Shown in pieces: positions 26,158 through 58,031 of a stretch of DNA of 64,000 bases; within the stretch, counting starts at the first letter, position 1, and every line of letters begins with the position of its first letter. A program made the translations under genes and the position numbers. The DNA lies in the NCBI GenBank assembly GCA_017880865.1, contig JADGRL010000001.1, positions 1 through 64,000 on the forward strand, in the 5' to 3' direction. Below the pieces are notes generated by a model. It did not search any database, was not told the DNA's origin, and worked only from the letters and a program-made list of their open reading frames with translations. Source of the stretch: Gallionella sp. GTDB taxonomy: Bacteria > Pseudomonadota > Gammaproteobacteria > Burkholderiales > Gallionellaceae.

Positions 26158-26263
26158 TGATGGAACTACTAGCCATCTCACTAAGCTGCACAAACCGCAG
26201 CAAGTGATTAGTTATAGCCATTCGACTAGGCGAGCAAAAAACGCTCGCCACGTCGATGGTTAT
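26158..26263 (+). repeat. Dispersed hairpin repeat, locus A (two tandem units)
   Basis: Begins with the conserved lead TGATGGAACTACT, then unit A1 (26171-26215: AGCCATCTCACTAAG, stem GCTGC/GCAGC, arm CAAGTGATTAGTTAT) and unit A2 (26216-26263: AGCCATTCGACTAGG, stem GGCGAGC/GCTCGCC around AAAAAAC, arm ACGTCGATGGTTAT). The outer pairs are T-A, CAC/GTG in A1 and C-G, GAC/GTC in A2. The right end overlaps the stop codon of a duplicated clpB tail. Confidence 0.85.
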
Positions 26264-26321
26264 TTATCGAACTTCATCACGCCGCCCATGCAATCCACCT
26301 TGATCGTATCTTTCGCGGCGG
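26260..26321 (-). pseudogene. Duplicate of the clpB 3' end
   Basis: The minus strand encodes AAKDTIKVDCMGGVMKFDK-stop, matching the true ClpB C-terminus [19 protein letters not shown] with three changes. Similarity ends upstream of AAKD. It lies 150 bases beyond the current clpB stop, and its TAA is embedded in the end of repeat unit A2. It looks like a leftover of an older or duplicated clpB end. Confidence 0.85.
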
Positions 26322-26396
26322 TGCGTGGTTGTTGCCACTGTGTCAATTCCGTCCAGCTTTTGGCTGGTAACGGGTTGCCTGACTTTGTTATTAGTG

Positions 26397-26462
26397 GCTT
26401 TACCCCGCAAGGGGGCAAGAACCTCTTCGAGGCAACCACGGCCTACCCCTTGCGGGTAAAGC
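26397..26462. repeat. Long inverted repeat just after clpB
   Basis: GCTTTACCCCGCAAGGGG and CCCCTTGCGGGTAAAGC pair over 17 bases with one bulged C, enclosing about 31 bases with a small CCTC-TTC-GAGG hairpin inside. It ends 11 bases from the clpB stop. It could act as the clpB 3' terminus, or be a REP-like element. Confidence 0.65.
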
Positions 26463-26473
26463 GTGCATACTGT

Positions 26474-29053
26474 TTACGACTTATCAAACCGCATGACACC
26501 TCCCACGCAATCCACTTTCACCGTATCTTTGGCCGCGAAACGCCCTTCCAGTATCAGCTTGGCGAGCGGGTTCTCCAGTTGCGCCTGGATCGCGCGTTTC
26601 AGCGGACGTGCTCCATACACCGGATCGAAGCCCGCGTTAGCGATTTCGGCCAGTGCGGCATCGCTGATGTCCAGCTTCATTTCCATCGCATTCAGACGTG
26701 CTTCCAGATATTTCAACTGGATGCGCGCGATGGATTTGATGTTCTTCTCATCCAGCGCATGGAACACCACCACCTCGTCGATGCGGTTGATGAACTCGGG
26801 GCGAAAATAACTTTTCACCTCGCCCATCACCGCCAGCTTGATCACCTGATAATCGTCGCCTGCCATGGTCTGGATCATCTGGCTGCCCAGATTCGATGTC
26901 ATCACGATCACGGTGTTCTTGAAGTCCACGGTGCGCCCCTGTCCGTCGGTCATGCGTCCGTCGTCCAGCGCCTGCAACAATACGTTAAACACATCCGGGT
27001 GCGCCTTCTCCACTTCATCGAGCAAAATAACTGAATAAGGTTTGCGCCGCACCGCCTCGGTGAGTCCGCCGCCTTCCTCATAGCCGACATAGCCGGGCGG
27101 CGCGCCGATCAGACGCGCGACGGAATGCTTCTCCATGTACTCGCTCATGTCGATGCGTATCAGGTGATCTTCTGAATCAAACATGAAACCGGCCAGCGCC
27201 TTGCACAGCTCGGTCTTGCCGACGCCGGTAGGACCTAAGAACAGGAACGAACCATAGGGGCGGTTCGGGTCGGACAGGCCGGAGCGTGAGCGGCGGATCG
27301 CATCGGACACCAGCCTCACCGCCTCGTCCTGCCCCACCACGCGTTCATGCAACTTGTCTTCCATCTTGAGCAACTTGTCACGCTCGCCCTGCATCATTTT
27401 GGACACCGGAATGCCGGTCGCGCGGCTCACCACTTCGGCGATTTCTTCCACGCCGACCTGAGTGCGCAGCAGACGGTTCTTCGGCTTGCTCTCTTCGGCA
27501 TGCACGGCTTCTTTCAGTTTGGCTTCGAGCTGAGGCAGCTTGCCGTATTGCAGCTCGGCCACTTCCTGCAACTTGCCTTCGCGTTGCAGGCTCACCATCT
27601 CGGCGCGCACTTTTTCCATCTCTTCCTTGAGCAATGCGGTGCCTTGTGCCGCGCCCTTCTCCGCCTTCCAGATTTCGTCGAGATCGGCGTACTCGCGTTG
27701 CAGTTTGGCGATTTCGGTTTCGATCAGCGCGAAGCGCTTCTTCGAGGCTTCGTCTTTTTCCTTCTTCACCGCTTCGCGTTCGATCTTGAGCTGGATCAGG
27801 CGGCGATCCAGCTTGTCCATCACCTCAGGCTTGGAATCGATTTCCATTCTGACGCGCGCGGCAGCCTCGTCGATCAGGTCGATCGCCTTGTCAGGCAGGA
27901 AGCGGTCGGTGATGTAGCGGTGCGACAGTTCCGCCGCCGCGATGATGGCCGGGTCGGTAATGTCCACGCCGTGATGCAATTCGTATCTTTCCTGCAAACC
28001 GCGCAGAATCGCGATGGTCGCCTCCACGCTCGGCTCTTCCACCAGCACCTTCTGAAAGCGGCGTTCCAGCGCGGCATCCTTCTCGATGTATTTGCGATAT
28101 TCGTCCAGCGTAGTCGCACCGACGCAATGCAACTCGCCGCGCGCCAATGCGGGTTTGAGCATGTTGCCCGCATCCATCGCACCCTCGGCTTTTCCCGCGC
28201 CGACCATCGTGTGCAGCTCGTCGATGAACACGATGGTCTGGCCTTCATCCTGCGCCAGCTCCTTCAATACATTTTTCAGGCGTTCCTCGAACTCGCCGCG
28301 ATATTTCGCCCCGGCCAGCAGCGCTGCCATGTCCAGGCTCAGCACCTTCTTGCCTTTCAGCGATTCTGGCACCTCGCCGTTGACGATGCGCTGCGCCAGA
28401 CCTTCGACGATGGCGGTCTTGCCCACGCCCGGCTCACCGATCAGCACCGGATTATTTTTGGTGCGGCGTTGCAGCACCTGAATCGCACGGCGGATTTCGT
28501 CATCGCGCCCGATCACAGGATCAAGCTTGCCCTGACGGGCGCGTTCGGTCAGATCGATCGTGTATTTTTTCAGCGATTCGCGCTGACCCTCGGACTCGGC
28601 GCTGCCGACCGACTCGCCACCGCGCACCGCGTTGATCGCCTGCTCCAGCGGTGCACGCGCCACACCATGTGTTTTTAGCAAGCGTCCGGTCTCACCCTTG
28701 TCATCGCAAGCCGCGAGCAGGAACATTTCCGAGGCGATGAACTGATCGCCTCGCTTTTGCGCCGCCTTGTCGGTCAAGTTAAGCAGATTGGACAAGTCGC
28801 GCCCGACCTGAACTTCTCCGCCATGACCTTCCACCTTGGGCAGTCGCTCCATCGCATCTTCCAGGGCGGGTTTCAACCCGCCGACACTCGCACCGGCGCG
28901 CGCCAGCAGCGAAGCCGCGCCGCTATCGGCATCGTTGAGCAGCGCCAGCATCAGATGCTGCGGCTCGATGAACTGGTTGTCATTGCCGACAGCGAGACTT
29001 TGCGCATCGGATAGAGCTTGTTGCAGCTTGGTAGTGAATTTATCGAAACGCAT
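26474..29053 (-). CDS. clpB: ClpB disaggregase (AAA+ chaperone)
   Basis: 859 residues, the standard ClpB length. N-domain ([18 protein letters not shown]), first AAA+ module with Walker [14 protein letters not shown] and Walker [14 protein letters not shown], the coiled-coil M domain (about 400-530), and a second AAA+ module with Walker [14 protein letters not shown] and Walker [11 protein letters not shown]. Works with DnaK to rescue aggregated proteins. The start is set by AAGGAG seven bases before the ATG. A heat-shock sigma-32 type promoter lies upstream. A degenerate copy of the last 19 codons sits downstream. Confidence 0.97.
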
Positions 29054-29081
29054 GGTGCTCTCCTTCATAAGTGTGCGGTTG

Positions 29082-29110
29082 AAATGGAGGGAGTTGCGGC
29101 CGATTTCAAG
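29082..29110 (-). promoter_or_regulatory. Sigma-32 heat-shock promoter of clpB
   Basis: Minus strand: CTTGAAA (29110-29104), a 14-base spacer, then CTCCATTT (29089-29082), against the sigma-32 consensus CTTGAAA-N11-16-CCCCATNT. It lies 29-57 bases before the clpB start. One mismatch in each half at most, and a heat-shock gene downstream. Confidence 0.85.
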
Positions 29111-29262
29111 TGACCATATAGAATTCGCTTGATGTATACGACCCAGGGCAATAATCGTCTATCTGTCGTACAATAACACTTAATTGAATTAATCATTCCC
29201 CTTGCCTTGGACAATTGATCAGTATGCTGGAATCAATCAGGGCGCGTGAAGGAAAACATCAC

Positions 29263-29985
29263 ATGAAAAGCAAAATTATAACGAGCTTAGTGACGGGCAC
29301 TCTGTGTGTTGCGACGATATTTTCCGTTTCTGCGGCAAGTGCTGGCAACGAAAAATTCAGTCTCTCCAGCGGATTTGACTCCAGTTCCAATAACTACGAA
29401 GCCGGCCCTTGGGTATTCAAATTGGCTGTGCCTGCCGACATGTCCGGTACTGTAGTTCCCGTGATCGGTCGTATTAGAACAGACGGTGCTGCCAGCAACA
29501 CGCAACAGGGCTTGAGTAACTCTGAAGCTGCAGCTACCTATAACATCTATGCGGGCAGCGCATCCGCACCGGGGATCAATTTAACCGGCAAAGTTAAAGT
29601 CAATATCGCGGATAAAAGCAGCACTTTCAGCCTAAATCAAAACGACTACGCGGCGCAGATGGAGGTTTATCAAAGTCTGGACAAATTTACCGCAAAGGGG
29701 TCGCTGGGTTCCAAGTTTCTGGGCAACCCGACGGGAATGACGCTGGACCCGGTGCTCTATGGATCGTTCGGGGGCATCTACCAATTCACCGAAAAAACCA
29801 GCACGGGGGTCGATATGAGCTTAACCCAAGACCCGAACGCTACGGGTGTAAGACAGCCTGAGTTGAGCGCTTACGTAAATTACAAGCTCGACAAGAACCT
29901 CAAAGCTCGTGGCTACGTGCTCAGAGGATTCACCAACGGCAATCCGAATAACGCCTTGGGCGGACAAGTTTATTACGGGTTCTGA
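29263..29985 (+). CDS. Outer-membrane beta-barrel protein
   Basis: 240 residues. A signal peptide (MKSKIITSLVTGTLCVATIF, cleavage near SAASAG) is followed by alternating amphipathic strands (VFKLAVPADM, GVDMSLTQDP, LSAYVNYKLDKNLKARGYVL) and a C-terminal GGQVYYGF; the terminal Phe is the signal for BAM-mediated insertion. Size suits an 8-12 stranded barrel. No family recognised. The stop codon is shared with the lead of repeat locus B. Confidence 0.75.
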   Translation: MKSKIITSLVTGTLCVATIFSVSAASAGNEKFSLSSGFDSSSNNYEAGPWVFKLAVPADMSGTVVPVIGRIRTDGAASNTQQGLSNSEAAATYNIYAGSASAPGINLTGKVKVNIADKSSTFSLNQNDYAAQMEVYQSLDKFTAKGSLGSKFLGNPTGMTLDPVLYGSFGGIYQFTEKTSTGVDMSLTQDPNATGVRQPELSAYVNYKLDKNLKARGYVLRGFTNGNPNNALGGQVYYGF

Positions 29986-30046
29986 TGAGACTACTAGCCA
30001 CCTGACTAAGTTGGCAAGCTACGCCAGCCAAGTCATTGGATATAGC
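29983..30046 (+). repeat. Dispersed hairpin repeat, locus B (one unit)
   Basis: The lead TGATGAGACTACT starts at the stop codon of the barrel gene, then unit B1 (29996-30043): AGCCACCTGACTAAG, stem TTGGC/GCCAG around AAGCTAC, arm CCAAGTCATTGGATAT. Outer pairs are T-A, GAC/GTC. It fills the gap between the barrel gene and nadC. Confidence 0.85.
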
Positions 30047-30077
30047 GCAATCTAGCTTCACGATCAGAGGAATTCCC

Positions 30078-30920
30078 ATGCCAGAATCCGAGCTCGCCTC
30101 ACACATCCGCCGCAATGTCACCCACTCGCTCGATGAAGACATAGCCACCGGCGACTTGAGCGCGCAACTGTTATCTGCGACACAAATATCAACCGCACAA
30201 ATCATCACGCGACAATCAGCGGTACTGTGCGGCACGCAGTGGTTCGATGCCTGCTTCCTCATGCAAGACCCTAACTGCGTGATCAACTGGCAGGCAGCGG
30301 ACGGCGACAAGATCAGCGCAGGCCAAACGCTGTGCGAGATTCAAGGTCACACGCGCGCGCTGCTCAGCGCCGAACGCAGCGCCTTGAACTTGCTGCAAAC
30401 CCTGTCCGGCACCGCCACGCGTACCCGGCTCTATGTGGATGAAGTGGCTGGCATCAACGTCAAAATCATGGATACGCGCAAGACTTTGCCAGGGCTTCGG
30501 CAGGCGCAAAAATATGCGGTTCGAACAGGAGGCGGACATAACCAGCGTGTCGGTTTATTCGACGGGATATTGATCAAGGAAAACCACATCGCCGCAGCAG
30601 GAGGCATCAAACTCGTGCTGGAGCAGGCACATCGCCTCGCCCAGCCGGGCATCGGCGTCCAAATCGAAGTGGAAAATATGGCGCAACTGGATGAAGCTTT
30701 GAATGCCGGAGCAAAACTGATCCTGCTCGACAACTTCGATCAGGATGGTTTGAGCGCAGCAGTAAAGCACACCGGCAATCGCGCCGAACTGGAAGCATCC
30801 GGCGGCATCACGCTTGCGACTTTGCGCAAAGTCGCGCTGACCGGCGTAGATCGCATCTCGATCGGCGCACTAACCAAAGATGTCGAATCGCTCGATCTGT
30901 CCATGCGCTTCAGAACATAA
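30078..30920 (+). CDS. nadC: Quinolinate phosphoribosyltransferase
   Basis: 280 residues. NadC landmarks: LDEDIATGDLSAQLL at the start, LLSAERSALNLLQTLSGTAT, IMDTRKTLPGLR, and RTGGGHNQRVGLFDGILIK split over the active site, then IQIEVEN-type VQIEVENMAQLDEAL and LEASGGITL. It makes nicotinate mononucleotide from quinolinate and PRPP in NAD biosynthesis. The start is set by AGAGGAA eight bases upstream. Confidence 0.97.
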   Translation: MPESELASHIRRNVTHSLDEDIATGDLSAQLLSATQISTAQIITRQSAVLCGTQWFDACFLMQDPNCVINWQAADGDKISAGQTLCEIQGHTRALLSAERSALNLLQTLSGTATRTRLYVDEVAGINVKIMDTRKTLPGLRQAQKYAVRTGGGHNQRVGLFDGILIKENHIAAAGGIKLVLEQAHRLAQPGIGVQIEVENMAQLDEALNAGAKLILLDNFDQDGLSAAVKHTGNRAELEASGGITLATLRKVALTGVDRISIGALTKDVESLDLSMRFRT

Positions 30921-31108
30921 CATGGCTACGCGATGTGCCCGCTATCAGGCATGAACTGAAACTCCCCCACCGACATCAATTTCCTTCACCTGGTTCCAGA
31001 AGCTCTAGCACCCGTACCGACAACTCGCCGGGCTAAATTTAATTTAAATGAAGCAGCGCAAATAAACCGGCAGGCTGTGTTACGGGCCGCTCGCGCAACC
31101 GCTTTTAT

Positions 31109-32455
31109 TCATGAAAGGTTTGTTGCCTGCAACGCGTGTGTGCCGTCTTCTTCAGCTTCAACATTCTGAATGCTGCACGAGAGCGGTGTGTAGAAACTGA
31201 CTTGATTGCGCCCGTTCTCTTTTGCGCGATACATCGCAATATCCGCCCATTTGAGAATATCGTCATGACTCCCCTGATGATTGACGAACAGGGTCACGCC
31301 GACACTGGAGGTGCAGCGATGCTCCACGGTCATGGATTTTGCCTTCTCGTCTTTCTGGATATTCAGCAAATACGGTTCGGATAAGGCGGCGCGTATTTTT
31401 TCGGCAATGATGCTCGCCCGCGCCATGGAAGCGTTTTCATCGCTATCCAGTTCGCCCAGAATCACCACGAACTCATCGCCACCGAAACGCGCAACCGTAT
31501 CCACCTCGCGCACACACTGGCTGATGCGCTGCGCGGCCTCGATCAGCAGCAAGTCGCCTGCATTGTGGCCGTAAAGGTCGTTGAGCGGCTTGAAGTTATC
31601 CATGTCGATAAACATCACCGCGCCATAACGACCGCTACGCCGACTGGTCGCCATCGTTTGTATCAGCCTGTCATTCAACAAACGGCGATTGGGCAGATGG
31701 GTCAGCGGATCATAAAAGGCCAGATTGTGTATCTCGGCTTCAGCCGCTTTGCGCCGGGTGATGTCGGTAAAAATACCGACATAGTTGATGACTTCACCAT
31801 TTTCGCCATACACGGCAGTGATGGTCAGCCACTCAGGGTAAGTCCTGCCGTTTTTGCGCCGGTTCCAGATTTCTCCGCTCCAGCATTTTTCGCGTTCTAT
31901 CGTAGCCCACATACGGCGGTAGAACTCAGGGTCTTGCCGTCCAGAGGTCAGCAGTGCCGGTGTTTTACCCACGGCCTCCGCGCTGGTGTAACCGGATATC
32001 CGGGTGAAGGAATGATTGACCCTAAGAATATTTTTGTCTGCATCGGTAATCAGCACCCCCTCCTGGCACTCGAACGTGGCGGCGGCAACGCGCAGCTCGT
32101 TAAATTGCAGCTGGAGTGTGGTCTGTTGCTCCTGCATCGGGCGCAAGATCAGGATATTCAGCGCCGGCGTACAGATGAGGGTCAGCAAAATGGCATCGGC
32201 TATCTCCCAGTAGATTCCCGAAACATTCTGGTTGAGGATCAGCTTAAATATTCCCTCCATGTTCAACAACAACACCAGATTCGCGATCAGAATGATATAG
32301 GCCATCATGCCCACCGCACCTACCGGAGAGTGGCAAAATTTCAAAAAGCTTTGGATCAGTTTGTCCATCGACCCGACCCAAGAACAGTCGGGTAGGCCTT
32401 CTCGAAGCGGGGCAACGCTGTCTTGCCGCACGTTGCCAGAGGGTGCGTTATACAT
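31109..32455 (-). CDS. PAS-GGDEF diguanylate cyclase, membrane-bound
   Basis: 448 residues. Two membrane helices (VGAVGMMAYIILIANLVLLL and IADAILLTLICTPALNILIL), a PAS domain (about 125-240; GVLITDADKNILRVNHSFTR, ending with a PAC motif YVGIFTDITRRKAAE), then a GGDEF domain (about 250-425) with intact ARFGGDEFVVIL and a DPLTHLPNRR start. It should make cyclic di-GMP. A likely inhibitory RxxD site is not seen before GGDEF. The start at 32455 overlaps the IHF-like gene by 8 bases; a start at 32368 (MDKLIQSF) is a reasonable alternative. Confidence 0.92.
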   Translation of the reverse strand: MYNAPSGNVRQDSVAPLREGLPDCSWVGSMDKLIQSFLKFCHSPVGAVGMMAYIILIANLVLLLNMEGIFKLILNQNVSGIYWEIADAILLTLICTPALNILILRPMQEQQTTLQLQFNELRVAAATFECQEGVLITDADKNILRVNHSFTRISGYTSAEAVGKTPALLTSGRQDPEFYRRMWATIEREKCWSGEIWNRRKNGRTYPEWLTITAVYGENGEVINYVGIFTDITRRKAAEAEIHNLAFYDPLTHLPNRRLLNDRLIQTMATSRRSGRYGAVMFIDMDNFKPLNDLYGHNAGDLLLIEAAQRISQCVREVDTVARFGGDEFVVILGELDSDENASMARASIIAEKIRAALSEPYLLNIQKDEKAKSMTVEHRCTSSVGVTLFVNHQGSHDDILKWADIAMYRAKENGRNQVSFYTPLSCSIQNVEAEEDGTHALQATNLS

Positions 32456-32870
32456 GGTTTACCGTGGCTTCCATGTTGCGCATCACCACCGGATTCAGCG
32501 GGCTCTGCATAATCGGCAACGGTGAGTGAATTTCGGCTGTCTGAATACCTGCATCCCTTTGAGCTTCGGCACTATCGCCCACCCGCTCCCGCAACTCCTT
32601 GGCGGGTTTGAACTGCGGCACGTATTTCACCGGTACTTTTATTTTGTTGCCCGCTTTGGGACTCTTGCCGCCGACTTTGAGATCGCGTTTCTGCCGTGGC
32701 TGAACCAGGCTCAAAGAAAAACTGCCGAAGCCGCGAATTTCTACCCGGCCGCCCTTTAAGAGATTGCCGCACAGCGCATCCAGCATCACCTTGACCGCCA
32801 ATTCGGCATCTTTGGTTTTGAGTTGAGGATTCAATGCGGCAAGGCGCGAGATAAGTTCAGATCTATCCAT
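32448..32870 (-). CDS. HU/IHF-family DNA-binding protein with a long C-terminal tail
   Basis: 140 residues. The first 98 match IHF-beta (MDRSELISRLAALNPQLKTKDAELAVKVML split by helices, GRVEIRGFGSFSL, then the DNA-bending arm with the intercalating Pro in GGKSPKAGNKIKVP, and FKPAKELRERV). The arm core RNPKTG of classical IHF is KSPKAG here. About 42 extra residues, Glu/Pro/Asn-rich, follow and are not seen in normal IHF. Overlaps the GGDEF gene. Likely a specialised paralogue rather than the housekeeping subunit. Confidence 0.85.
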   Translation of the reverse strand: MDRSELISRLAALNPQLKTKDAELAVKVMLDALCGNLLKGGRVEIRGFGSFSLSLVQPRQKRDLKVGGKSPKAGNKIKVPVKYVPQFKPAKELRERVGDSAEAQRDAGIQTAEIHSPLPIMQSPLNPVVMRNMEATVNHV

Positions 32871-32885
32871 ATTAATAATTCCGGT

Positions 32886-33827
32886 TCATTTAAACCCAAG
32901 CCGCTCGAAGTGCGATTCGGATTTCATCAATGCATCGTGCAAAGATTGGGGAAGCAGGTCACGCGCCTCCATATGCGCGAGGGACTCCTCGCCCAGCAGC
33001 AGATTTTCCAGATAGGAAATCTGTATTCCGTTTTGCAGCTCGGTATCGGCGCGTTCGAACAATTTTCCGATAAAAACAAAATGCGACAGCGCGGTATAAA
33101 AATCCATACGTTGGATGGCCTCTCTGGTCGCCACGGTCAGGGCGCCGATTTCCAGGTGCAGGATGCCGAAATCACTCTCGTCAATGAGTGCAGCAACTTC
33201 CGGAAAATACGATGTAAGCTGGAAGATAAAGTCGGTGCGCCAATTGTTTGTCTTGGCCAGGCCGCGCAGGGAAGAAAATTCCCTGAAGTCTGCCCCGTAA
33301 GTGAGAAGCGGGCAGGCTGCGTCCCGCTTGCTGTTAGTCTCTGGTGTGGGCTGTATTTGCTGAACCGAAGCCTGCCTCCTTTTTGAACAGTAGCGGGTTG
33401 TGTGGCTCACCTGCTCCGCTCCCATCCGAAACCACTTTTCGGCCTCTCGTTCATTGCGAGAGACGCCATGCCCATATCGGTACATCAACCCAAGGTGATA
33501 TTGGGCATCCGCATTACCTTGCTCTGCTGCCAGCAGACACCACTTTGCGGCTTCAGTGGCATCTTGAAAAACACCTAGCCCGGCTCTATACATCGACCCG
33601 ATGCGGAATTGGGCATCGGCATTGCCGTGTTCCGCCGCCAGTCGGTACCACTTTGCGGCTTCGGTGGCATCCTGGGGAACCCCTTTCCCCTGGTCATACA
33701 CAACTCCCATATTGAATTGGGCAAGGGCGTGGCGTTGCTCGACATGCAGGCGATACTCCCGCAAAGCTTTTGTTTGATCGCTCGTAGAGATTGCATGTTG
33801 CGCATTCATGAGTAACTGATTTAACAA
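32886..33827 (-). CDS. Sel1-repeat protein with a DUF7674-like C-terminus
   Basis: 313 residues without a signal peptide. Residues about 20-145 hold three Sel1 repeats of 36 residues (ALAQFNMGVVYDQGKGVPQD, ADAQFRIGSMYRAGLGVFQD, ADAQYHLGLMYRYGHGVSRN, each followed by a AAKW or AEKW helix). After a linker, residues about 205-313 form a second domain (LTSYFPEVAALIDESDFGIL, LFERADTELQNGIQISYLEN) resembling DUF7674. Sel1 repeats mediate protein contacts, so this is probably a cytoplasmic adaptor. Close to the IHF-like gene (15 bases). Confidence 0.8.
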   Translation of the reverse strand: MLNQLLMNAQHAISTSDQTKALREYRLHVEQRHALAQFNMGVVYDQGKGVPQDATEAAKWYRLAAEHGNADAQFRIGSMYRAGLGVFQDATEAAKWCLLAAEQGNADAQYHLGLMYRYGHGVSRNEREAEKWFRMGAEQVSHTTRYCSKRRQASVQQIQPTPETNSKRDAACPLLTYGADFREFSSLRGLAKTNNWRTDFIFQLTSYFPEVAALIDESDFGILHLEIGALTVATREAIQRMDFYTALSHFVFIGKLFERADTELQNGIQISYLENLLLGEESLAHMEARDLLPQSLHDALMKSESHFERLGFK

Positions 33828-33897
33828 TTTAGCTCTCCTCTTAAAATCAAAACGTCGGGTTAAAAATGCCCTTCCGCCCCTAAGTGATGCTTCAACT

Positions 33898-34260
33898 TTA
33901 ATTAGTATTCAAACTTTGCACGAACTTTACCAATTCGGTAATTTCTGCCTGCCTGATGCCCGTTGCGTCGTTGGCCGGCATTGGTGTCGTACCCCATTCC
34001 CCCGAACCGCCCTTGGATACCTTCCTCACCAGACCTTCGGTCAAAGGATATTCCTTGTCGTTGTAGGTGTACTTGTTAACGCCGCCGCCGATGTACTTTT
34101 TGGCCACGTCTCGCCAGGCCGGGCCGACCACCTTCTTGTCAATCGCGTGACAACCGGTGCAATTGAGCTTCTTGGCCAGTGCCGGCATTTCTTCTGCCAT
34201 TACGCTACCTGCGACCATCAAACTGGCTATTGCAATCAGGCTTCCAATAATAGATTTCAT
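33898..34260 (-). CDS. Periplasmic class I cytochrome c (c-551/c-552 like)
   Basis: 120 residues. Signal peptide MKSIIGSLIAIASLMVAGSV-MA, then a mature chain of about 98 residues with the haem site CTGCHAIDKK, GPAWRDVAKKY and a Met ligand in GTTPMPAND. This is the small soluble electron carrier type that feeds or drains terminal oxidases, nitrite reductases or peroxidases. The start is set by AAGGAAAAG. It follows the cyclic-nucleotide-binding gene by 30 bases, so the two are probably co-transcribed. Confidence 0.93.
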   Translation of the reverse strand: MKSIIGSLIAIASLMVAGSVMAEEMPALAKKLNCTGCHAIDKKVVGPAWRDVAKKYIGGGVNKYTYNDKEYPLTEGLVRKVSKGGSGEWGTTPMPANDATGIRQAEITELVKFVQSLNTN

Positions 34261-34289
34261 ATGCTTTTCCTTTTTTTTCTGTCGCAATA

Positions 34290-34775: not shown

Positions 34776-34861
34776 TTCATTCTCCTTATCCGTTTTACAC
34801 ATTGCTCTTTACGAAGCTGTGATGATGAGACGACTTGCTGATTTACCGATTTACCAAAAAG

Positions 34862-41506: not shown

Positions 41507-42172
41507 TCAGGCCTTTTTGCGTGCTGCCAAGTCGATCAATGCGGACATGCCGCTGTGCGCCGTACCTTCGCCGATATGATCATCATGCTCGCGCAGATGA
41601 AAAATCTCCATGTCGCCAAACGCCTTGCTCAACAGCGCTTCGGTGTACATGTTTTCCGCTACCTGCGGACCACCGGTTTTATATTCGAGCTGGCGCGGCG
41701 TGTAGCCTTGCAGCAATAACAGCCCGCCCGGTTTCAGGCTGCGCTTGATATTGGCGAACATCTGCTCGCGCAAAGCGGGCGGCGCAAACTGGATGAAGAT
41801 CGCCGCCACCACATCGAAACGGTTCTCGCCCCATTGCCAATGCGCGAGATCGGCCTGCTCGAACGCAACCATCACACCGCGCTGATACGCCAGCTTCTTT
41901 GCCTTCTCCAGCGCCACCGCCGATGCTTCCACCGACAGCACCTGCAAGCCCTGCTCGGCCAGCCACACGCCGTTGCGCCCTTCGCCATCGGCGACGGCGA
42001 GCACGCTGGCACCCGGCTTGAGCAAATCGCGTTGAGTCACCAGAAAAGCATTCGGCTCGGTGCCGAACAAATAGCCGTCTTGCGCGTAGCGCTCGTCCCA
42101 GATGTTATGACCAGCGACTTGGCGAGCGTCGTTTGCTCGCTTAGTCGAATGGCCAGTAGTTTCATCAGACAT
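41507..42172 (-). CDS. TehB-like SAM-dependent methyltransferase with a repeat-encoded N-terminus
   Basis: 221 residues. Class I methyltransferase: WDERYAQDGYLFGTEPNAFL (family N-terminus), the SAM motif VLAVADGEGRNGVWLAEQG, the acidic VEASAVALEKAK, and FDVVAAIFIQFAP. Related to TehB and thiopurine-type enzymes, detoxification being the usual role. The first about 23 residues (MSDETTGHSTKRANDARQVA and on) are an extension made entirely by dispersed repeat unit C. The start is firm: AGGAGG lies seven bases upstream inside the RND gene, and the ATG overlaps its stop by 8 bases. Confidence 0.88.
   Translation of the reverse strand: MSDETTGHSTKRANDARQVAGHNIWDERYAQDGYLFGTEPNAFLVTQRDLLKPGASVLAVADGEGRNGVWLAEQGLQVLSVEASAVALEKAKKLAYQRGVMVAFEQADLAHWQWGENRFDVVAAIFIQFAPPALREQMFANIKRSLKPGGLLLLQGYTPRQLEYKTGGPQVAENMYTEALLSKAFGDMEIFHLREHDDHIGEGTAHSGMSALIDLAARKKA
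42104..42167 (-). repeat. Dispersed hairpin repeat, locus C (one unit, in a coding region)
   Basis: Minus strand: lead TGATGAAACTACT, then GGCCATTCGACTAAG, stem CGAGC/GCTCG around AAACGAC, arm CCAAGTCGCTGGTCAT. Outer pairs are C-G, GAC/GTC. The lead TGA is the stop codon of the RND gene, and the unit continues in frame as the start of the methyltransferase. Confidence 0.88.
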
Positions 42173-49876: not shown

Positions 49877-49908
49877 AATTTATATATCCGTTATTCTTAA
49901 TTTTATTT

Positions 49909-50002
49909 GTAGGAGCACAATTTACCTCGGAGAGGTTCTTGTACCCTGCGGGTATTGCGCGATAGCTTGCTCACAGAATCGCCCGATGAATCGGGCTCCT
50001 AC
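49909..50002. repeat. REP/BIME-like element between alaA and hom
   Basis: GTAGGAGC at the left and GCTCCTAC at the right enclose about 78 bases; the right part contains the hairpin GCCCGA-TGAA-TCGGGC. GTAGGAGCCCGATTCATCGGGC-type elements recur in many proteobacterial genomes. It fills most of the 133-base gap between the genes. Confidence 0.7.
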
Positions 50003-50009
50003 CGTGCTG

Positions 50010-51239: not shown

Positions 51240-51248
51240 GATTAATTT

Positions 51249-51276
51249 GTAAGGGCGCGATTAATCACGCCCCTAC
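51249..51276. repeat. REP-like hairpin in the alaA upstream region
   Basis: GTAAGGGCGCGATTAATCACGCCCCTAC pairs end to end over about 12 bases with two mismatches. GTAGGGGCG...GATTAATC-type REPs are widespread. It lies 10 bases before the alaA start, so it may affect its expression. Confidence 0.65.
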
Positions 51277-51323
51277 CTCCATTTGATTTAGCCTGCTGCT
51301 CGATAACTTGCATACTCTCCGCA

Positions 51324-52868
51324 ATGCTAGAATTCGCCGCGAAGCTGCAAAGGGCGCGATTTTACCCGCCCCGTCCCGGTACAGCAAATGCCACCGTGAA
51401 AGCTGTAGGGAGAAAACTGATTTTGATCTGGGAACGCAAAACACAAAAACCTAAAGCGAAGCTGGGCCTGTTTAATGCCACCTGCATGCTGGTATTGGTG
51501 CTACTGGGTTCGGGATGCAGCCAGAACAACCTGCTCACCCGGCAGGACTACCAGCAAAGCCAGCGGGATTTTTTGCGGGGCGATGCTAACGAGGCGCTGC
51601 TGGATTTCCCGCGCAAGACAGAGGGCGGCACTTTCATCACCACGATGGAGCAAGGCTACCTGTCACTAATTCAGGGCAAGCCGCAGATCAAGGAACTGCA
51701 GAAACAGGCGGATGTTCTGGAAAACCGGGTTCGCTACCACGTCTCACGCGAGGCGCGAACTTTTTTCTATGTGCAGACACCCGAGGATTATTACGCCTCG
51801 GAGCATGAGGTGATCTGGATGCACTTCCTGCTGAGCTGGGGATATTCACTGCAGGGGAAGCATGAAGATGCCTGCGTGGAGGCGCGCATCGCCGGCAGCC
51901 TGTTGCAGCTGCCATGGAGTCCTTCGGGGTATTTCGACGATCCTGCGATGCGCCTGTTTCTGGCCGGGTTGTGGACCATGTGCGGCGATTGGCATGAGGC
52001 ACAGGTGGATTTGCGTGCGGCATGGTTTCAGGACCACAGCCTCACATGGGCTCTGGAACTGTCTGAGCGCCGCCACCCGCCGGCGCATTTGTTCATCGTG
52101 CTGGGCGGGCCGGGACCGGAACCGGTATGGAACCCGGAATTGACGGCCAACCCGTTGCGCTCTGGGCGCCAGGTCAGCTTCATGCTGCGGGGGAACAAGG
52201 GTCCTCTGTCCATCACCGATCAGCGCGGCATCATTATCAAACCCTATCTCTCACCCGATGCCGGCAAGTGGTACGAGCGTCACTTGGCACGCGACAGCGA
52301 ACTGCACGAGATGATCCAGGATTCTGTATATGGCCAAAAAATGGCGGTCAGCGGTGCCATGGCTGGAGGCTGGATAGCCGCCACCACCGGCATGGGCCTG
52401 GCGGTAGGTATAGGCGGCACTGCGCTGGGCGCAGCCGTCATTTATTACGGTCAATCATTGGATGCACTGAAAATTGGGCTGGCAGTTGCGGCGGTCGGTA
52501 TAAAAATGGGGATCAATATTTCAAAAATAGGTTATGAAAAAAGTACCCGCATGCTGGAACAGGATCTCGATCCCACTCCCGGTTACCGTTTTGTCCGTTA
52601 TTTGCCTGAATACCTGTGGATGGGATGGAGCGATCAGACTATTACTTACCCGGTACAGCTGCGCACACCCACTGCAAATATCAAAATTCAGCACCCGAGC
52701 GTGATCAACCATACTGCCGTTACCATAGCCTATATGCCTGAAGGCCAAGTTATGCCGGAAGACCGATTTTCCTGCCGATACCCGTCCAACAACCCCTCCG
52801 TCGTCATCGTGCCCTTGCAGGACAAGTACGGAAACTGCCCACCAGCATCCTCCTCTGTGATCTGGTAA
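51324..52868 (+). CDS. Large lipoprotein with a glycine-rich membrane-like segment
   Basis: 514 residues if the first ATG is used. The true start is probably downstream: a TTG at 51423 with AGGGAG before it gives a normal lipoprotein signal (GLFNATCMLVLVLLGSGCSQ, lipobox LGSGC). Body: helical repeats (about 75-250) that look like TPR-type pairs, then a Gly/Ala-rich hydrophobic stretch (GWIAATTGMGLAVGIGGTAL, about 350-380) and a beta-rich C-terminus. It may belong to the uncharacterised COG3014 group, not confirmed. Monocistronic. Confidence 0.65.
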   Translation: MLEFAAKLQRARFYPPRPGTANATVKAVGRKLILIWERKTQKPKAKLGLFNATCMLVLVLLGSGCSQNNLLTRQDYQQSQRDFLRGDANEALLDFPRKTEGGTFITTMEQGYLSLIQGKPQIKELQKQADVLENRVRYHVSREARTFFYVQTPEDYYASEHEVIWMHFLLSWGYSLQGKHEDACVEARIAGSLLQLPWSPSGYFDDPAMRLFLAGLWTMCGDWHEAQVDLRAAWFQDHSLTWALELSERRHPPAHLFIVLGGPGPEPVWNPELTANPLRSGRQVSFMLRGNKGPLSITDQRGIIIKPYLSPDAGKWYERHLARDSELHEMIQDSVYGQKMAVSGAMAGGWIAATTGMGLAVGIGGTALGAAVIYYGQSLDALKIGLAVAAVGIKMGINISKIGYEKSTRMLEQDLDPTPGYRFVRYLPEYLWMGWSDQTITYPVQLRTPTANIKIQHPSVINHTAVTIAYMPEGQVMPEDRFSCRYPSNNPSVVIVPLQDKYGNCPPASSSVIW

Positions 52869-52935
52869 CGCGGCGTTGACGCCGCCTGCGTCCAAACCCT
52901 AAACTCCCAACATTAGATAATGCACGGAGGTCATT

Positions 52936-53304
52936 TTGAAACTTCATCTGGATCATCTCGGCGAGACCAAACTGTTCACCGCCCACGGCCCTGATCACGT
53001 GAGGGTCAACGGCGAACGCTTTGACCACAGCATCGTCGTGCTGGCCGAAGAGGTTCGCTGCGACTGGGTTGTCGCCAGCTTCGACGCATTGAACGAGGCG
53101 CACTTCAATTATTTTCTTGCGCTCAAACCTGACGTGCTGCTGCTCGGCACCGGGGCGACGCAGCGCTTTCCCCATCCGCGCCTGTATCGTGCATTGACCG
53201 ATGCGGGCATCGGCGTGGAGTGCATGGACACCCCCGCCGCATGTCGCACTTACAATATACTGGTGGCGGAAGATCGCCGAGTGATCGCCGCAATTCTGAT
53301 TTAA
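52936..53304 (+). CDS. Mth938-like protein (NDUFAF3 relative)
   Basis: 122 residues with a TTG start after GGAGGT. Mth938 family: VRVNGERFDHSIVVLAEEV, LKPDVLLLGTGATQRFP, and GIGVECMDTPAACRTYNILV. The mitochondrial relative helps assemble complex I; bacterial members are mostly uncharacterised. Ten bases before moxR. Confidence 0.88.
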   Translation: MKLHLDHLGETKLFTAHGPDHVRVNGERFDHSIVVLAEEVRCDWVVASFDALNEAHFNYFLALKPDVLLLGTGATQRFPHPRLYRALTDAGIGVECMDTPAACRTYNILVAEDRRVIAAILI

Positions 53305-53313
53305 GGGACGGAT

Positions 53314-54246
53314 ATGAGCCAAGCACTAAAAAACGTCATCTTGCAGGCCGAGCAGATCATACTCGGCAAGCCGCAGCAGATCCGGCTCGCACTGTGTTGC
53401 CTGCTGGCGCGCGGTCATTTGCTGATCGAGGATTTGCCGGGGGTCGGAAAAACCACGCTGGCGCAGGTACTCTCGCGCACACTGGGCTTGCAGTTTCAGC
53501 GCATCCAGTTCACCAGCGACCTGCTGCCCGCCGATATTCTGGGGGTGTCGGTGTACCAGCGCGCAAGCGATAATTCGATGTCCGGCGAATTCAAATTTCA
53601 TCCCGGTCCGATATTCGCGCAAATGATCCTGGCCGATGAAATCAACCGCGCCACGCCCAAGGCGCAGAGCGCGCTGCTGGAGGCGATGGACGAACATCAG
53701 GTCACGATCGAAGGCGTGACACGCCCGCTGCCCCCGCCGTTCTTCGTCATCGCCACGCAGAATCCGGCGCACCAGATCGGCACCTTTCCGCTGCCGGAAT
53801 CGCAGCTCGACCGCTTCCTGATGCGTATCCAGATGGGCTATCCCGATGCGCAGGCCGAACGCGGCTTGCTGTCCGGCGTGGACCGGCGCGAAATCATCGC
53901 CAAGCTCAACCCGCAGATGGAAAGGGTGGAACTGCTCGCGCTGCAAAAACGTGTCCGGACGGTGTTCGTCTCGCCCGCGCTGCTCGATTACGTACAAGCC
54001 ATATTGCGCCATACGCGCGAAGTTGCGCGCTACACGCACGGCCTCTCGCCGCGCGCCGGACTCGCGCTGCTCGCCGCCGCACGCGCGTGGGCGTTGTTGG
54101 ATGAACGCGACGCGGTGACTCCCGAAGATGTGCAAGCCGTATTGCCTGGGGTCACCAGCCACCGCCTGCAAGCGATCGGCGAATACTCGACGCAAAATAC
54201 CGATGTGCTGGCGCGCGAATTGATCGAAGCGGTCGCGATACCCTAA
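53314..54246 (+). CDS. MoxR-family AAA+ ATPase
   Basis: 310 residues. Walker A LPGVGKTTLAQVL, Walker B and the MoxR signature ADEINRATPKAQSALLEAMDEHQVT, sensor ATQNPAHQIGTFPLPESQLDRF. MoxR proteins act as chaperone-like activators with DUF58 partners. First of the moxR-DUF58-tgpA set. Confidence 0.94.
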   Translation: MSQALKNVILQAEQIILGKPQQIRLALCCLLARGHLLIEDLPGVGKTTLAQVLSRTLGLQFQRIQFTSDLLPADILGVSVYQRASDNSMSGEFKFHPGPIFAQMILADEINRATPKAQSALLEAMDEHQVTIEGVTRPLPPPFFVIATQNPAHQIGTFPLPESQLDRFLMRIQMGYPDAQAERGLLSGVDRREIIAKLNPQMERVELLALQKRVRTVFVSPALLDYVQAILRHTREVARYTHGLSPRAGLALLAAARAWALLDERDAVTPEDVQAVLPGVTSHRLQAIGEYSTQNTDVLARELIEAVAIP

Positions 54247-54258
54247 CGCTCCGAAGCT

Positions 54259-55233
54259 GTGCTCGCATCGATCAAACAGAAATTCCGAAACTGGGCGTTC
54301 AGCCGCACGGCCGAGACCGGCACGGTCATGCTGACGCAACGCCGCATTTTCATCATCCCGACCAAACAGGGTTTCACGCTTTGCTTCGTGCTGCTGCTGA
54401 TGCTGCTCGGCGACATCAACTACAACCTGAGCCTGGGGTATGTGCTGACGTTCCTGCTGACGATGATGGCGGTGATGTCGATGCTGCATGCTTTTCGCAA
54501 CCTGGCGCACCTTGAGATCCGCGCCGGACGTGCCGATGCGGTATTCAGCGGCGAGACCGCACAATTCATACTGCACTTCAATAATCGCAGCAAACTATTT
54601 CGCTACCAACTTTGCTTGTTGAAAACGGGCGATTCATTTTGGGCGAGCGGCGCCCCATCCATCTGCTTTGACGTTCCCGCGCAACAGGATTGCGAGGTCG
54701 CCTTTCCGCTGCCGACCACGCAGCGCGGCTGGCTGCAAACGGGGCGTCTGACGCTGTATACCGAATTCCCGCTAGGTCTGTTTTATTGCTGGTCATATTT
54801 GCATTTCGATACGCGCTGCCTGGTGTACCCCAAGCCCTTTAGCGACGCACCGCTGCCGGCAGTCCACGCACCGGACGGCACGGGCAAGCGCAACGTCGCA
54901 GGCGATGAAGACTTCGCAGGCTTACGTAATTACGTTCCGGGCGACGCGTTGCCGCGCATCGCATGGAAGGTGTTTGCGCGCGGGCAGGGTTTGCAGGTCA
55001 AGCAATTTTCCACGCCCGTCGGTGAAGAATTGTGGCTGGATATTGCCGATGCACCGGATCGCAACGAAGAAGAAAAATTGGCGCGCATGGCGCGCTGGGT
55101 GCTGGATGCCGAGGCGCAAGGTTTGCGCTACGGCCTGCGTTTGCCGGATGGAGACTTGCCATCCGGCAGCGGCACCGGGCAACGCGATGAATGTTTGCGC
55201 AGGATTGCGCTATTTAATTTGCCGCACCCATGA
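54259..55233 (+). CDS. DUF58-domain membrane protein
   Basis: 324 residues with a GTG start. Two membrane helices near the N-terminus (about 35-80), then a beta-rich region and the DUF58 motif LRNYVPGDALPRIAWKVFAR. DUF58 proteins are partners of MoxR ATPases. Its stop overlaps the tgpA start (ATGA). Confidence 0.88.
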   Translation: MLASIKQKFRNWAFSRTAETGTVMLTQRRIFIIPTKQGFTLCFVLLLMLLGDINYNLSLGYVLTFLLTMMAVMSMLHAFRNLAHLEIRAGRADAVFSGETAQFILHFNNRSKLFRYQLCLLKTGDSFWASGAPSICFDVPAQQDCEVAFPLPTTQRGWLQTGRLTLYTEFPLGLFYCWSYLHFDTRCLVYPKPFSDAPLPAVHAPDGTGKRNVAGDEDFAGLRNYVPGDALPRIAWKVFARGQGLQVKQFSTPVGEELWLDIADAPDRNEEEKLARMARWVLDAEAQGLRYGLRLPDGDLPSGSGTGQRDECLRRIALFNLPHP

Positions 55234-57158
55234 GCAAATCTCTGACCTACGGCCTGTTGCTGTGCATCCTGATGGTCACGGCACCCCATGCCGACCATCT
55301 GCCGCTGTGGCTCAGCAGCCTGTGCGCGGGCTTGCTGATATGGCGCGCCACTCTCGCTTACAGCGGCAAAGCGCTGCCGAAACGCTGGTTGCTGATGCTC
55401 ATCACCGTTGCCGGCACGGCCGGGATCGTGTTCGAATTTCACACGCTGTTTGGCCGCGAGGCGAGCGTCACGCTGCTGGTGTTGCTCGCCTCGCTCAAGC
55501 TGCTGGAACTGCGCGCGGCGCGCGATGCGATGGTGCTGATCTATCTGGCCTGCTTCATCATCATCACCAACTTCTTTTACTCGCAGAGCATCCCCACCGC
55601 GCTATACCTGCTCGCCACGCTGATGGTCATTTTGACCACCTGGGTACACCAGCAAGGTCAAAACATCGCAATCAAACCAAGGCTGCGCATCGCTGCGGTG
55701 TTACTGCTGCAAGCTATTCCGCTGACGCTGATCCTGTTCATCCTGTTCCCGCGTGTGCAAGGCCCTCTGTGGGGATTGCCGCAGGATGCTTATGCTAGCA
55801 GCGGGCTGGATGACAAAATGGCGCCGGGCAGTTTGAGCCGTTTGAGTTTGTCGGAAGCAGTTGCATTTCGCGTTAACTACAACGACAAACCGCCGCAGCG
55901 TAACCAGATGTACTGGCGCGGGCCGGTGCTGTGGAATTTCGACGGGCGCACCTGGACACCGGGCAAAACCGCGCTCACGTTCGCGCCGAAATTCACCGAG
56001 CTCGATCAGCAGATCGATTACGTCGTCACGCTGGAGCCGCACAACAAGCCCTGGCTGTTCGCGCTCGATGTCCCGAATAAAATCTCCGTGTCCGCCACCC
56101 TCACTTATGATTTTCAGTTGCTGAACAAAGAGCCGGTCAATGCACGGTTGCGCTATGCGGCGCGCTCGAATCTGGTCTATCACGCCAACTTGCAAGAATC
56201 GACTCGGCAGCTTCAGCGCGCCTTGCAGCTGCCCAAACAGTTCAATCCGCGCGCACAGCAACTAGCCTTAGAGTGGCGCGCCAGCAGCAAAGATGATGCC
56301 GACATCGTCAACACCGCGCTGACTTATTTCAACAAACAAGGCTTTATATACACGCTCGAACCGCCCTTGCTCGGCGTCAATACGGTCGATGATTTTATGT
56401 TCACCACCAAACAGGGATTCTGCGAACACTACGCATCAAGCTTCGTATTCCTGATGCGTGCCGCCAACATCCCGGCGCGCGTCGTGACCGGCTATCAGGG
56501 CGGCGAATTCAACGATGTCGGCAACTACTACATCGTGCGCCAATCCGATGCCCACGCCTGGGCGGAAGTGTGGCTGGCGGGACAAGGCTGGGTGCGCATC
56601 GATCCGACGGCGGCGATCGCCCCGGAACGTGTGCAGCGTAATCTGTCTGCCGCCGTGTCCAACAACGCCGCCCTGCCGTTCATGGCGCGCAATCCGCCGC
56701 AGTGGATGCGCGACTTGCGCTTCAATCTGGACTCGCTCGCCAACCAATGGAACCAGTGGGTGCTGGGCTACGACACCGAACGCCAATTCGCCTTCCTGAC
56801 GCGCTTGGGCATGGAAGATGTCACCTGGCAAAAAATGGCGCTCGACATGGCGGGCGGGATGGGGCTGGTGATCGCACTGTTCTCGCTGTTCATGCTGCGC
56901 CATCTGATCAAACGCCAGCCGGATAAGGTGCAGGCCGCATGGCTCAAGCTGTGCCGCAAACTGGCCAAAGCGGGCCTGCCGCGCGCCGCTCACGAAGGCG
57001 CACAAGACTACGCCGCCCGCATCACCGCGTCTCGCCCCGAGCTGACTGATTCGATGCGCGACGTAGCCATGCGCTACACTGCGCTGCGCTATGGTTCGGT
57101 TCAGGATGAACAGGCGCTGCGCGAATTTCTGCAACGCGCTGCGGCTTTGAAAATTTGA
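55230..57158 (+). CDS. tgpA: TgpA-like membrane transglutaminase
   Basis: 642 residues. N-terminal DUF3488 region with about six membrane helices (about 1-190), then a periplasmic transglutaminase core with Cys398 (QGFCEHYASS), His442 (DAHAWAEVWL) and Asp458 (RIDPTAA), and a last membrane helix near 550 followed by a C-terminal domain. The Pseudomonas homologue TgpA is essential in that species. Part of the moxR-DUF58-tgpA operon. Confidence 0.93.
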   Translation: MSKSLTYGLLLCILMVTAPHADHLPLWLSSLCAGLLIWRATLAYSGKALPKRWLLMLITVAGTAGIVFEFHTLFGREASVTLLVLLASLKLLELRAARDAMVLIYLACFIIITNFFYSQSIPTALYLLATLMVILTTWVHQQGQNIAIKPRLRIAAVLLLQAIPLTLILFILFPRVQGPLWGLPQDAYASSGLDDKMAPGSLSRLSLSEAVAFRVNYNDKPPQRNQMYWRGPVLWNFDGRTWTPGKTALTFAPKFTELDQQIDYVVTLEPHNKPWLFALDVPNKISVSATLTYDFQLLNKEPVNARLRYAARSNLVYHANLQESTRQLQRALQLPKQFNPRAQQLALEWRASSKDDADIVNTALTYFNKQGFIYTLEPPLLGVNTVDDFMFTTKQGFCEHYASSFVFLMRAANIPARVVTGYQGGEFNDVGNYYIVRQSDAHAWAEVWLAGQGWVRIDPTAAIAPERVQRNLSAAVSNNAALPFMARNPPQWMRDLRFNLDSLANQWNQWVLGYDTERQFAFLTRLGMEDVTWQKMALDMAGGMGLVIALFSLFMLRHLIKRQPDKVQAAWLKLCRKLAKAGLPRAAHEGAQDYAARITASRPELTDSMRDVAMRYTALRYGSVQDEQALREFLQRAAALKI

Positions 57159-57197
57159 CAAGGTATAATCCGCGCCACATCAACCCAACAAACCAAC

Positions 57198-57650
57198 ATG
57201 CTCATCACCCGCCGCCTGGAATTCGATGCCGGACATCGCATCCCCAACCACAACAGCCAGTGCAAACATCTGCACGGCCATCGCTACGCGATTGAGATCA
57301 CGCTATCCGGCGACATCATCACCAGCGAGGGGAAATCCGAACAAGGCATGGTGATGGATTTTTCCGATGTCAAACGCATCGCCAAGGAAAAGCTGGTGGA
57401 CATGTGGGATCATGCCTTTCTGGTATATCGCGGCGACAAGCCGGTGTGCGACTTTCTGGCCAGCCTGCCGAATCACAAGACCGTCATCCTCGATGTCGTG
57501 CCGACCGCAGAGAATCTCGCCCAGGCCGCTTTCGAGATTCTCGATCCGGCCTATCAGGACACCTACGGAAACCACCTGCGCCTGGAGCGGGTGCGGCTCT
57601 ACGAAACCCCCAACAACTGGGTGGATTGCGCCAGAAGCTATAACCAATGA
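57198..57650 (+). CDS. queD: 6-carboxytetrahydropterin synthase (QueD)
   Basis: 150 residues. Zinc-binding histidines in FDAGHRI and CKHLHGHRY with the catalytic Cys in SQCKHLHGH, then VMDFSDVKRIAKEKL, DHAFLVYRGD and NLAQAAFEIL. Makes the queuosine precursor from dihydroneopterin triphosphate. The last codons and the stop (SYNQ-stop) lie inside the end of repeat locus D, so the C-terminus was probably altered when the element arrived. Confidence 0.95.
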   Translation: MLITRRLEFDAGHRIPNHNSQCKHLHGHRYAIEITLSGDIITSEGKSEQGMVMDFSDVKRIAKEKLVDMWDHAFLVYRGDKPVCDFLASLPNHKTVILDVVPTAENLAQAAFEILDPAYQDTYGNHLRLERVRLYETPNNWVDCARSYNQ

Positions 57651-57745
57651 CTTACCCAGCGTTTTTTGCTGGGTTAGTCAGATGGCTATAACCAACCACT
57701 TGGCAACCGTCTTCTGGTTGCTTAGTGGGATGGCTAGTTGTTTCA
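57636..57745 (-). repeat. Dispersed hairpin repeat, locus D (two tandem units)
   Basis: Minus strand: lead TGAAACAACT, unit D1 (AGCCATCCCACTAAG, stem CAACC/GGTTG around AGAAGAC, arm CCAAGTGGTTGGTTAT) and unit D2 (AGCCATCTGACTAAC, stem CCCAGC/GCTGGG around AAAAAAC, arm TAAGTCATTGGTTATAGCT). Outer pairs are C-G, CAC/GTG in D1 and T-A, GAC/GTC in D2. Its far end includes the queD stop codon. Confidence 0.88.
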
Positions 57746-57837
57746 CCAGTGGTCTTACCAGATTATTTTCCGGACACCGCTGCATTTTTCTGGACAGAGA
57801 CAGCGGCTTAGTTCAAAATGCGCCGCCTCAAAGAACG

Positions 57838-57925
57838 GGAAGTTTGGGTGAGTGGTTTAAACCAGCAGTCTTGAAAACTGCCGAACAGAAATGTTCCGTG
57901 AGTTCGAATCTCACAGCTTCCGCCA
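57838..57925 (+). tRNA. tRNA-Ser (anticodon UGA)
   Basis: 88 bases including an encoded CCA. The acceptor stem GGAAGTT pairs with AGCTTCC (one G-T), the D arm starts GGGTGAGTGG, the anticodon stem GCAGT/ACTGC holds the loop CTTGAAA with TGA at 57872-57874, a long variable arm (typical of class II serine tRNAs) follows, and the T arm reads GTGAGTTCGAATCTCAC. Followed by a terminator. Confidence 0.96.
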
Positions 57926-57960
57926 GAACACGTTCTCAAGCAATCTCAAACAACCTCACA

Positions 57961-57994
57961 AACCCGCACTGCGTATCGCTTTAGCGGGTTTTTT
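57961..57994 (+). terminator. Terminator of the tRNA-Ser gene
   Basis: AACCCGC (57961-57967) pairs with GCGGGTT (57984-57990), followed by a run of T. It is 36 bases past the tRNA end. Confidence 0.85.
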
Positions 57995-58000
57995 GTTGCC

Positions 58001-58031
58001 CAAGCGGCTACAGCCAAGTGGCTGGTTATAG
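58001..58031 (+). repeat. Dispersed hairpin repeat, locus E (right half only)
   Basis: CAAGCGGCTACAGCCAAGTG followed by GCTGGTTATAG keeps the right arm (CCAAGTGGCTGGTTATAG) and a short GGCT/AGCC stem; the left arm and lead are gone. Its end GGTTATAGGAG supplies the ribosome binding site of the broken higA next to it. Confidence 0.7.

Follow-up and report, generated by a model that had tools for sequence, protein, structure and literature searches.

Most repetitive extragenic palindromic sequences (REPs) belong to the GTAG or the CGTC family, and some of them lie inside palindromes and genes; the CGTC REPs seem to have no dedicated transposase (PMC3733652). The REP transposase TnpA_REP cuts at CT, the REPs of E. 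coli need a bulge in the stem, and GTAG at the foot of the hairpin has been proposed to choose the site through cross-pairing of its AG (PMC8266576). Elements of the IS200/IS605 group insert 3' of a short target and leave no target duplication (PMC7290912), and the in-frame elements of Rickettsia have been reviewed (PMC10969869). Here, we analysed a dispersed hairpin repeat found in 64,000 nucleotides of Gallionella sp. (assembly GCA_017880865.1, contig JADGRL010000001.1, positions 1 to 64,000), a stretch that we call the window. The repeat is not described in the Gallionella literature searched, nor in the available text of PMC3733652, PMC3116915, PMC2817692 and PMC12306157.

Exact pairs of filled and empty sites, compared as sequences, show that this family is mobile DNA, which goes beyond the original prediction, and its units are rather probably copies of a non-autonomous element that moves as single-stranded DNA. 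The full element starts with GATGRAACTACT and AG, continues as an imperfect hairpin in which an A-A mismatch is conserved and the loop of 7 bases reads AAANNAC, and finishes with TTAT. It is mostly 60 nt long, or 54 nt with a short stem; among 276 distinct units of the common, long-lead form (type A) taken with their flanks from the examined loci, 205 measure 60 nt, 46 measure 54 nt and 25 have other lengths. Flanks of units in the genome that holds the window (the own genome) were searched against relatives, and the filled sites differed from the empty ones by exactly 60 or 54 nt (GATGRAACTACTAG, hairpin, GGTTAT), with no loss or duplication of the target. For example, the site ...GGCGAGGACT/GTCTGAG... 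(the slash marks the joint), which itself belongs to another dispersed repeat, is empty at four loci (L082, L187, L037 and L235) and filled by 60 nt in contig C35. An empty site ...CATCCCAACT/GCGG... is present in L195, while ...GTCGTTCGCT/GTGCGG... is empty in L264 and filled by 54 nt. One unit was inserted each time rather than an inverted doublet, and tandem copies are direct. The unit had originally been taken to start at TGATG; the joints correct this to an inserted element GATG...GGTTAT with one ambiguous T, which can be read as GATG...TTAT after CT or as TGATG...TTA between C and T. CGTC is found at neither end.

The target of type-A insertion is one-sided. A counterpart across the joint was found for 105 of the 276 units, 71 of them without gaps near the joint, and in these 71 the bases 5' of the joint were CT in 55 cases, TT in 6 and others in 10; this count is a loose one that includes many paralogous repeats, some other units (nested or tandem), some poor one-sided matches and shared targets. 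A strict recount, which demanded at least 80% identity, no unit-like sequence in flank or counterpart and good agreement to the left and to the right of the joint, retained 25 units (CT 24, TT 1) at 11 different targets (CT 10, TT 1). Before the lead itself, CT stands in 218 and TT in 36 of the 276 units, with CT at 5% in the window. To the right of the joint we counted G in 119, C in 106, A in 42 and T in 9 units, with a purine in 83% of 86 copies of the own genome, and no right-hand target motif longer than one base was seen. Repeated leads occur in 21 contexts and arm-lead joints in 5, all collected by a pattern that demands ACT at the inner border and is no test of the CT rule. A second dispersed repeat of about 130-150 bp (CCCCTGTGCGCCGCCGAGT...TCGGCGAGGACTGTCTGAGCGCG...CGCAGCCGCCTGACC) is present in several genomes (L082:1381-1513, L187:1589-1745, L037:2739-2880, L235:4671-4802, and near 12275 of C35 in G000) and is a recurrent insertion site of the unit. 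The sequence CCGAARARCTTTT/GGCCGGGCACCCG is also targeted repeatedly, after TTTT and not CT (L227, L283, L152; G000 C49:32936, C24:33917, C21:1789 and C74:56999).

The original prediction of a dispersed hairpin family with compensating changes was borne out. In 29 hand-picked units of the own genome, which are also the source of our covariance model, 94.6% of the paired cells can pair as compared to 82.5 ± 1.0 in shuffles, and 65 cells are changed on both sides of the pair as compared to 22 ± 4.3 in 500 shuffles, with at most 13 in slid structures. Only one of five measures, the number of further pair types, showed no excess (18 against 16.7, reached in 141 of the 500 shuffles). A larger set of 195 distinct 60-nt units was gathered from the examined loci with a pattern in which the arms near AGCCAT, ACTA, AAGT and TGGTTAT are fixed, so that only freely varying pairs are informative; its paired cells reach 96.3% (shuffle maximum 86.1%), and its 336 double changes exceed the mean of 100.5 and the maximum of 117 among 300 shuffles, contrary to the outcome named at the outset as refuting the family, covariation no better than in shuffled units. 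Pair 20-50, for instance, occurs as G-C in 139 of these units and as C-G in 49, and pair 28-42 as T-A in 129, C-G in 27, G-C in 15 and A-T in 15. The further claim that structure and not sequence is kept stands for the structure but not for the sequence. Throughout the 195 units, constant features are the lead (GATGRAAC.ACT), TAG at the foot of the hairpin, one G-T pair and AAA..AC in the loop; the A-A mismatch is conserved at 98% and 97%, and the foot pairs AGCCA/TGGTT, one of which is the conserved G-T, are nearly invariant. These constant parts suggest a protein that reads the folded strand. When folded as DNA, two units form strong hairpins, with z values of -3.6 and -4.2.

The own genome, which is 95.5% complete and comprises 2.85 Mb in 84 contigs, holds at least 128 covariance-model matches at E ≤ 0.01 among the 150 candidates scored out of 823, whereas the original prediction was to fall if no further copies existed. 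The pattern AACTACTRGCCATNNNACTAAG with at most 3 mismatches matched 80 times in the genome as compared to 6 for a reversed-pattern control, thus the repeats do not arise by chance. Within the genus, 35 of 37 genomes carry the element (own genome included), with 0 to at least 91 copies per genome, while none of 24 genomes from other families of the order had it. In the whole family Gallionellaceae it is present in 138 of 158 genomes and 14 of 15 genera, and in a sample of the order 22 of 300 genomes had matches, 13 of them outside the family. Among the matches listed, named carriers include metagenome-assembled genomes of Gallionella, Sideroxydans, Sideroxyarcus, Ferrigenium, Sulfuricella, Gallionellaceae and Nitrosomonadales. 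Plasmids and phages searched with one unit, and viral contigs searched with one pattern, gave no match. A genus outside the family (g77), which has identical model scores, was considered as an active source and rejected, as the copies opened in two of its genomes (G283 and G243) share their flanks and thus belong to a longer repeat. These genomes, which come from a different family within the order, have longer dispersed repeats that contain a divergent copy of the unit, at L345-L359 (G283) and L360-L364 (G243).

In comparison with described systems, the unit resembles GTAG-tagged REPs with their REP-associated tyrosine transposases (RAYTs), such as the REPtrons of E. coli and Stenotrophomonas, in its high copy number, imperfect hairpin (as in E. 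coli), TAG foot and CT site. However, it has CTAG or ATAG, a conserved 12-nt lead inside the element and no tie to a RAYT, and its units are single or in direct tandem and land inside GTAG REPs. REPINs, which are likewise non-autonomous hairpin DNA dispersed in genomes, have an inverted pair as the proposed spreading unit (PMC3116915), whereas here we find one hairpin and direct tandems. The Rickettsia palindromic elements (CGTC REPs RPE-4/6, PMC3733652) are also palindromic, in frame within genes and without a known dedicated transposase, but the unit has no CGTC tag, belongs to another host group and has a defined CT target. Unlike a classical miniature inverted-repeat transposable element, the unit is without target-site duplication. 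The palindrome-associated transposable elements derived from IS200/IS605 share with it the absence of target duplication, insertion 3' of a short target and hairpin ends. Those elements have a two-ended build, in contrast to the one hairpin of the unit, for which the examined loci showed no parental insertion sequence with these ends and three complete genomes no lagging-strand bias. The unit does share the IS200/IS605 trait of entering 3' of a short, fixed target that is not duplicated, the target here being a dinucleotide.

The lack of duplication, the one-sided target, the hairpin with its mismatch and the TAG foot fit Y1 (HUH) single-strand transposition, which we regard as the probable class of mechanism, with a confidence that the strict recount left unchanged. 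A Y1-type HUH transposase of the IS200/IS605/TnpA_REP superfamily would bind the folded strand by its stem, mismatch and loop, the foot tetranucleotide CTAG would guide it to the CT target, a role that has been suggested for GTAG in REPs, and the strand would be joined into the target at its GGTTAT end. CTAG and ATAG of the unit retain the AG of GTAG. No enzyme carrying the element was found, so that it may be supplied in trans, lost or of another class.

Several observations weigh against single-strand transposition by a Y1 enzyme. The E. coli TnpA_REP tolerates no change in GTAG (PMC8266576), whereas the unit has CTAG; its right end is GGTTAT and not a CT site, and copies of a rarer form (type B, below) insert after A or G and not after CT. 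The opposite strand of one unit folds at least as well (z -5.3), thus folding gives no answer on which strand is read. A replication-strand bias is predicted, while the three complete genomes gave 51:42 (p 0.41), or 49:44 with the other placement of the uncertain origin of G178; a published IS605 set is also without lagging-strand bias (PMC7290912). The numbers of units and of RAYTs per genome are uncorrelated (rho 0.22, p 0.20, n=37): one genome with at least 91 copies (G022, 83% complete) has no RAYT or Y1 match, and another with three RAYT matches (G023) has no copy. No transposase carrying the element was seen among the pattern matches in the examined loci, and a possible autonomous copy, with two half units around an open reading frame (ORF), was absent there as well. 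IS200-like ends as a source were set aside, as four loci (L093-L096) viewed by eye had no unit and a 21-bit model match in L093 was dropped as too weak.

About a quarter of the own-genome matches are without the long lead; 29 of 128 are type B, with a GCTTTGCAT lead, and 6 of 128 are direct tandem copies. The hairpin foot reads CTAG in type A (C at 97%) and ATAG in tandem copies and type B. For 16 of 34 type-B units in the examined loci near-empty sites were found, which by eye mostly show GCTTTGCATAGCC...TGGTTA inserted after A or G, often in a hairpin loop, although this border is less certain, with small mismatches or overlaps at several sites. Type B prefers the loops of other hairpins: flanks were complementary (score ≥6) in 10 of 29 pairs, as compared to a mean of 1.1 and a maximum of 4 in 200 trials with flanks re-paired. 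Hairpin-forming flanks were rejected for type A on a weak excess, with 5 of 87 pairs at a score of ≥7 (mean 1.0, maximum 4), three of the five being one target, and no excess over shuffles at ≥6 (5 against a mean of 2.1 and a maximum of 6). Units also lie inside the loops of other units (C8:27224 and C7:11341) and inside GTAG REPs (L032, L323, L324 and L085). It is possible, though we hold it with little confidence, that this is a family-wide single-hairpin element with its own retargeting, in which the CTAG form with its long lead enters behind CT and the ATAG form with its short lead enters the loops of hairpins. Its mover would then be a Y1 or other enzyme so far connected with no palindromic repeat, and the element would live as a parasite in the loops of REPs that belong to resident RAYTs.

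The units could also be the REPs of resident RAYTs, that is, ordinary REP or REPtron elements with a drifted tag, which we consider unlikely. Copy numbers of REP size, CT sites and an NTAG foot speak for this, and RAYT matches to two family models occur in 37 of 41 genomes of the genus, 28 of them over the cut-off. The own genome has one RAYT (NF047646, 130 bits), for which 4er8, a TnpA_REP, is the closest solved chain; a unit lies 111 nt upstream of this gene. In three genomes, units lie closer to RAYTs than random places do, with 2 of 16 within 200 nt (random mean 0.23, 38 of 2000 trials) and 4 of 16 within 1500 nt (mean 0.86, 14 of 2000 trials). This enrichment speaks somewhat for a link to RAYTs, but it would also be expected if the REPs there serve as targets, and because the random places include coding DNA. 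At 38 RAYT loci the NTAG hairpins are GTAG in 61 of 78 cases by a loose score, and 28 loci show at least one GTAG hairpin with a sequence other than that of the unit, while six have no NTAG hairpin at all. A unit within about 300 nt was found at only 6 loci among 59 + 20 RAYT/Y1 loci, some of them the same gene, and in four of these six it is nested in a GTAG REP beside the RAYT (L032, L323, L324 and L085). Together with the uncorrelated numbers, this argues against the RAYT-type linked transposase that had been suggested at the start: neither flank hairpins, nor distances, nor genus-wide models support a REPtron, and a mild enrichment remains. Several GTAG REP families, each beside a RAYT, exist in the genus (L032:2729-2860, L323, L324, L325, L331, L333 and L334), and a single genome (G013) has up to ten RAYT matches.

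We regard it as rather improbable that another duplication-free mover is responsible, such as a HUH Y2 enzyme (IS91/Helitron-like), an IS110/IS1111 element with bridge RNA, a serine recombinase of the IS607 kind or an integron integrase that uses the hairpin in the manner of attC. The absence of duplication and the one-sided target fit these classes as well, and the preference of type B for hairpin loops, with its complementary flank pairs, also favours them; the gene searches in the genomes covered Y1 enzymes only. The attC core box of integrons is GTTRRRY. This motif is absent at the element end, where GGTTAT is followed by AGCC or by varied flank.

A role as structured RNA (3'-end element, attenuator or small RNA) kept for its RNA function would explain the compensating changes in the stems and why a number of copies lie at the end of an ORF or ahead of a start codon. 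It is nevertheless very improbable: in the window the units match no Rfam family, a tRNA being the sole match above the gathering cut-off, the copies lie on both strands and inside a gene, other hairpins and each other, their number varies from 0 to at least 91 within one genus, and the empty sites are exact. Spread by reverse transcription or hairpin template switching instead of a transposase could change both sides of the inner stems together, as arm-templated copying would, but sits so poorly with the CT target rule and the exact one-sided joints that we give it hardly any weight.

In the window, all sequences of the original prediction are present, with six full units and a weak half unit at their places. 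The six full units are matched by the covariance model at E ≤ 1e-9, a recovery that is not independent since they are among the sequences used to build it. Unit a1 (57 nt, 26159..26215, plus strand) follows CT and reads GATGGAACTACTAGCC...TTAGTTAT; a second 12-nt lead lies 5' of it at 26147-26158, and a2, a leadless direct tandem copy (AGCCAT...ATGGTTAT), follows at 26216..26263 on the plus strand. Unit b (60 nt) is located at 29984..30043 on the plus strand, and the ORF at 29215-29985 takes the last two bases of its TGA stop from the start of this unit. On the minus strand, the leadless direct tandem copy d1 (57640..57687) provides the TGA stop (57648-57650) of the ORF at 57198-57650 and is joined by d2 (60 nt, 57688..57747), which follows CT and reads GGTGAAACAACTAGCC...TTGGTTAT. 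The half unit at 58001-58031, with only the decayed 3' arm GCCAAGTGGCTGGTTAT at 58013..58029 on the plus strand, had no model match at E ≤ 1. A tRNA gene (57838-57922) lies between the d1/d2 pair and this half unit, and soon after an ATG 3' of the half unit there is a run of ten C (58055-58064), which may be either a phase-variable tract or an assembly error.

Unit c (60 nt, 42107..42166, minus strand) is inserted in frame into a class I methyltransferase ORF of 221 aa (41507..42172, minus strand), where it follows codon 2 and adds 20 codons encoding DETTGHSTKRANDARQVAGH. A search for this methyltransferase in 61 genomes of the genus gave a match in 51; the 30 best other matches have identities of 63-85%, and 23 of them align from residue 20 or later. 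At 29 orthologous loci the 60 nt are missing, and the W(D/N)xR motif comes at most a few codons after the start codon; L391, for example, has ATGTCT/AATAATATGTGG, as compared to ATGTCT, 60 nt and AACATCTGG in the window. Pieces of the unit peptide occur in other long open frames, which are candidate genes (G096:C68, G018:C58, G018:C69 and G013:C53). The unit length is divisible by three in 256 of the 276 type-A units; sense frame 0 is open in 248 of them, frame 1 in 213 and one antisense frame in 202, and in 65 of 272 the open sense frame 0 continues for 99 nt to either side, these counts of open frames being given without a random control.

Empty sites reveal the borders, the target and the lack of duplication, and candidate enzymes thereby become directly testable. 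How small palindromic repeats spread without a linked transposase is an open question, stated for CGTC REPs (PMC3733652). The second form of the element seems to use the loops of other hairpins as landing sites. For its hosts, the element lengthens at least one gene by 20 in-frame codons and supplies the stop codons of two ORFs in the window.

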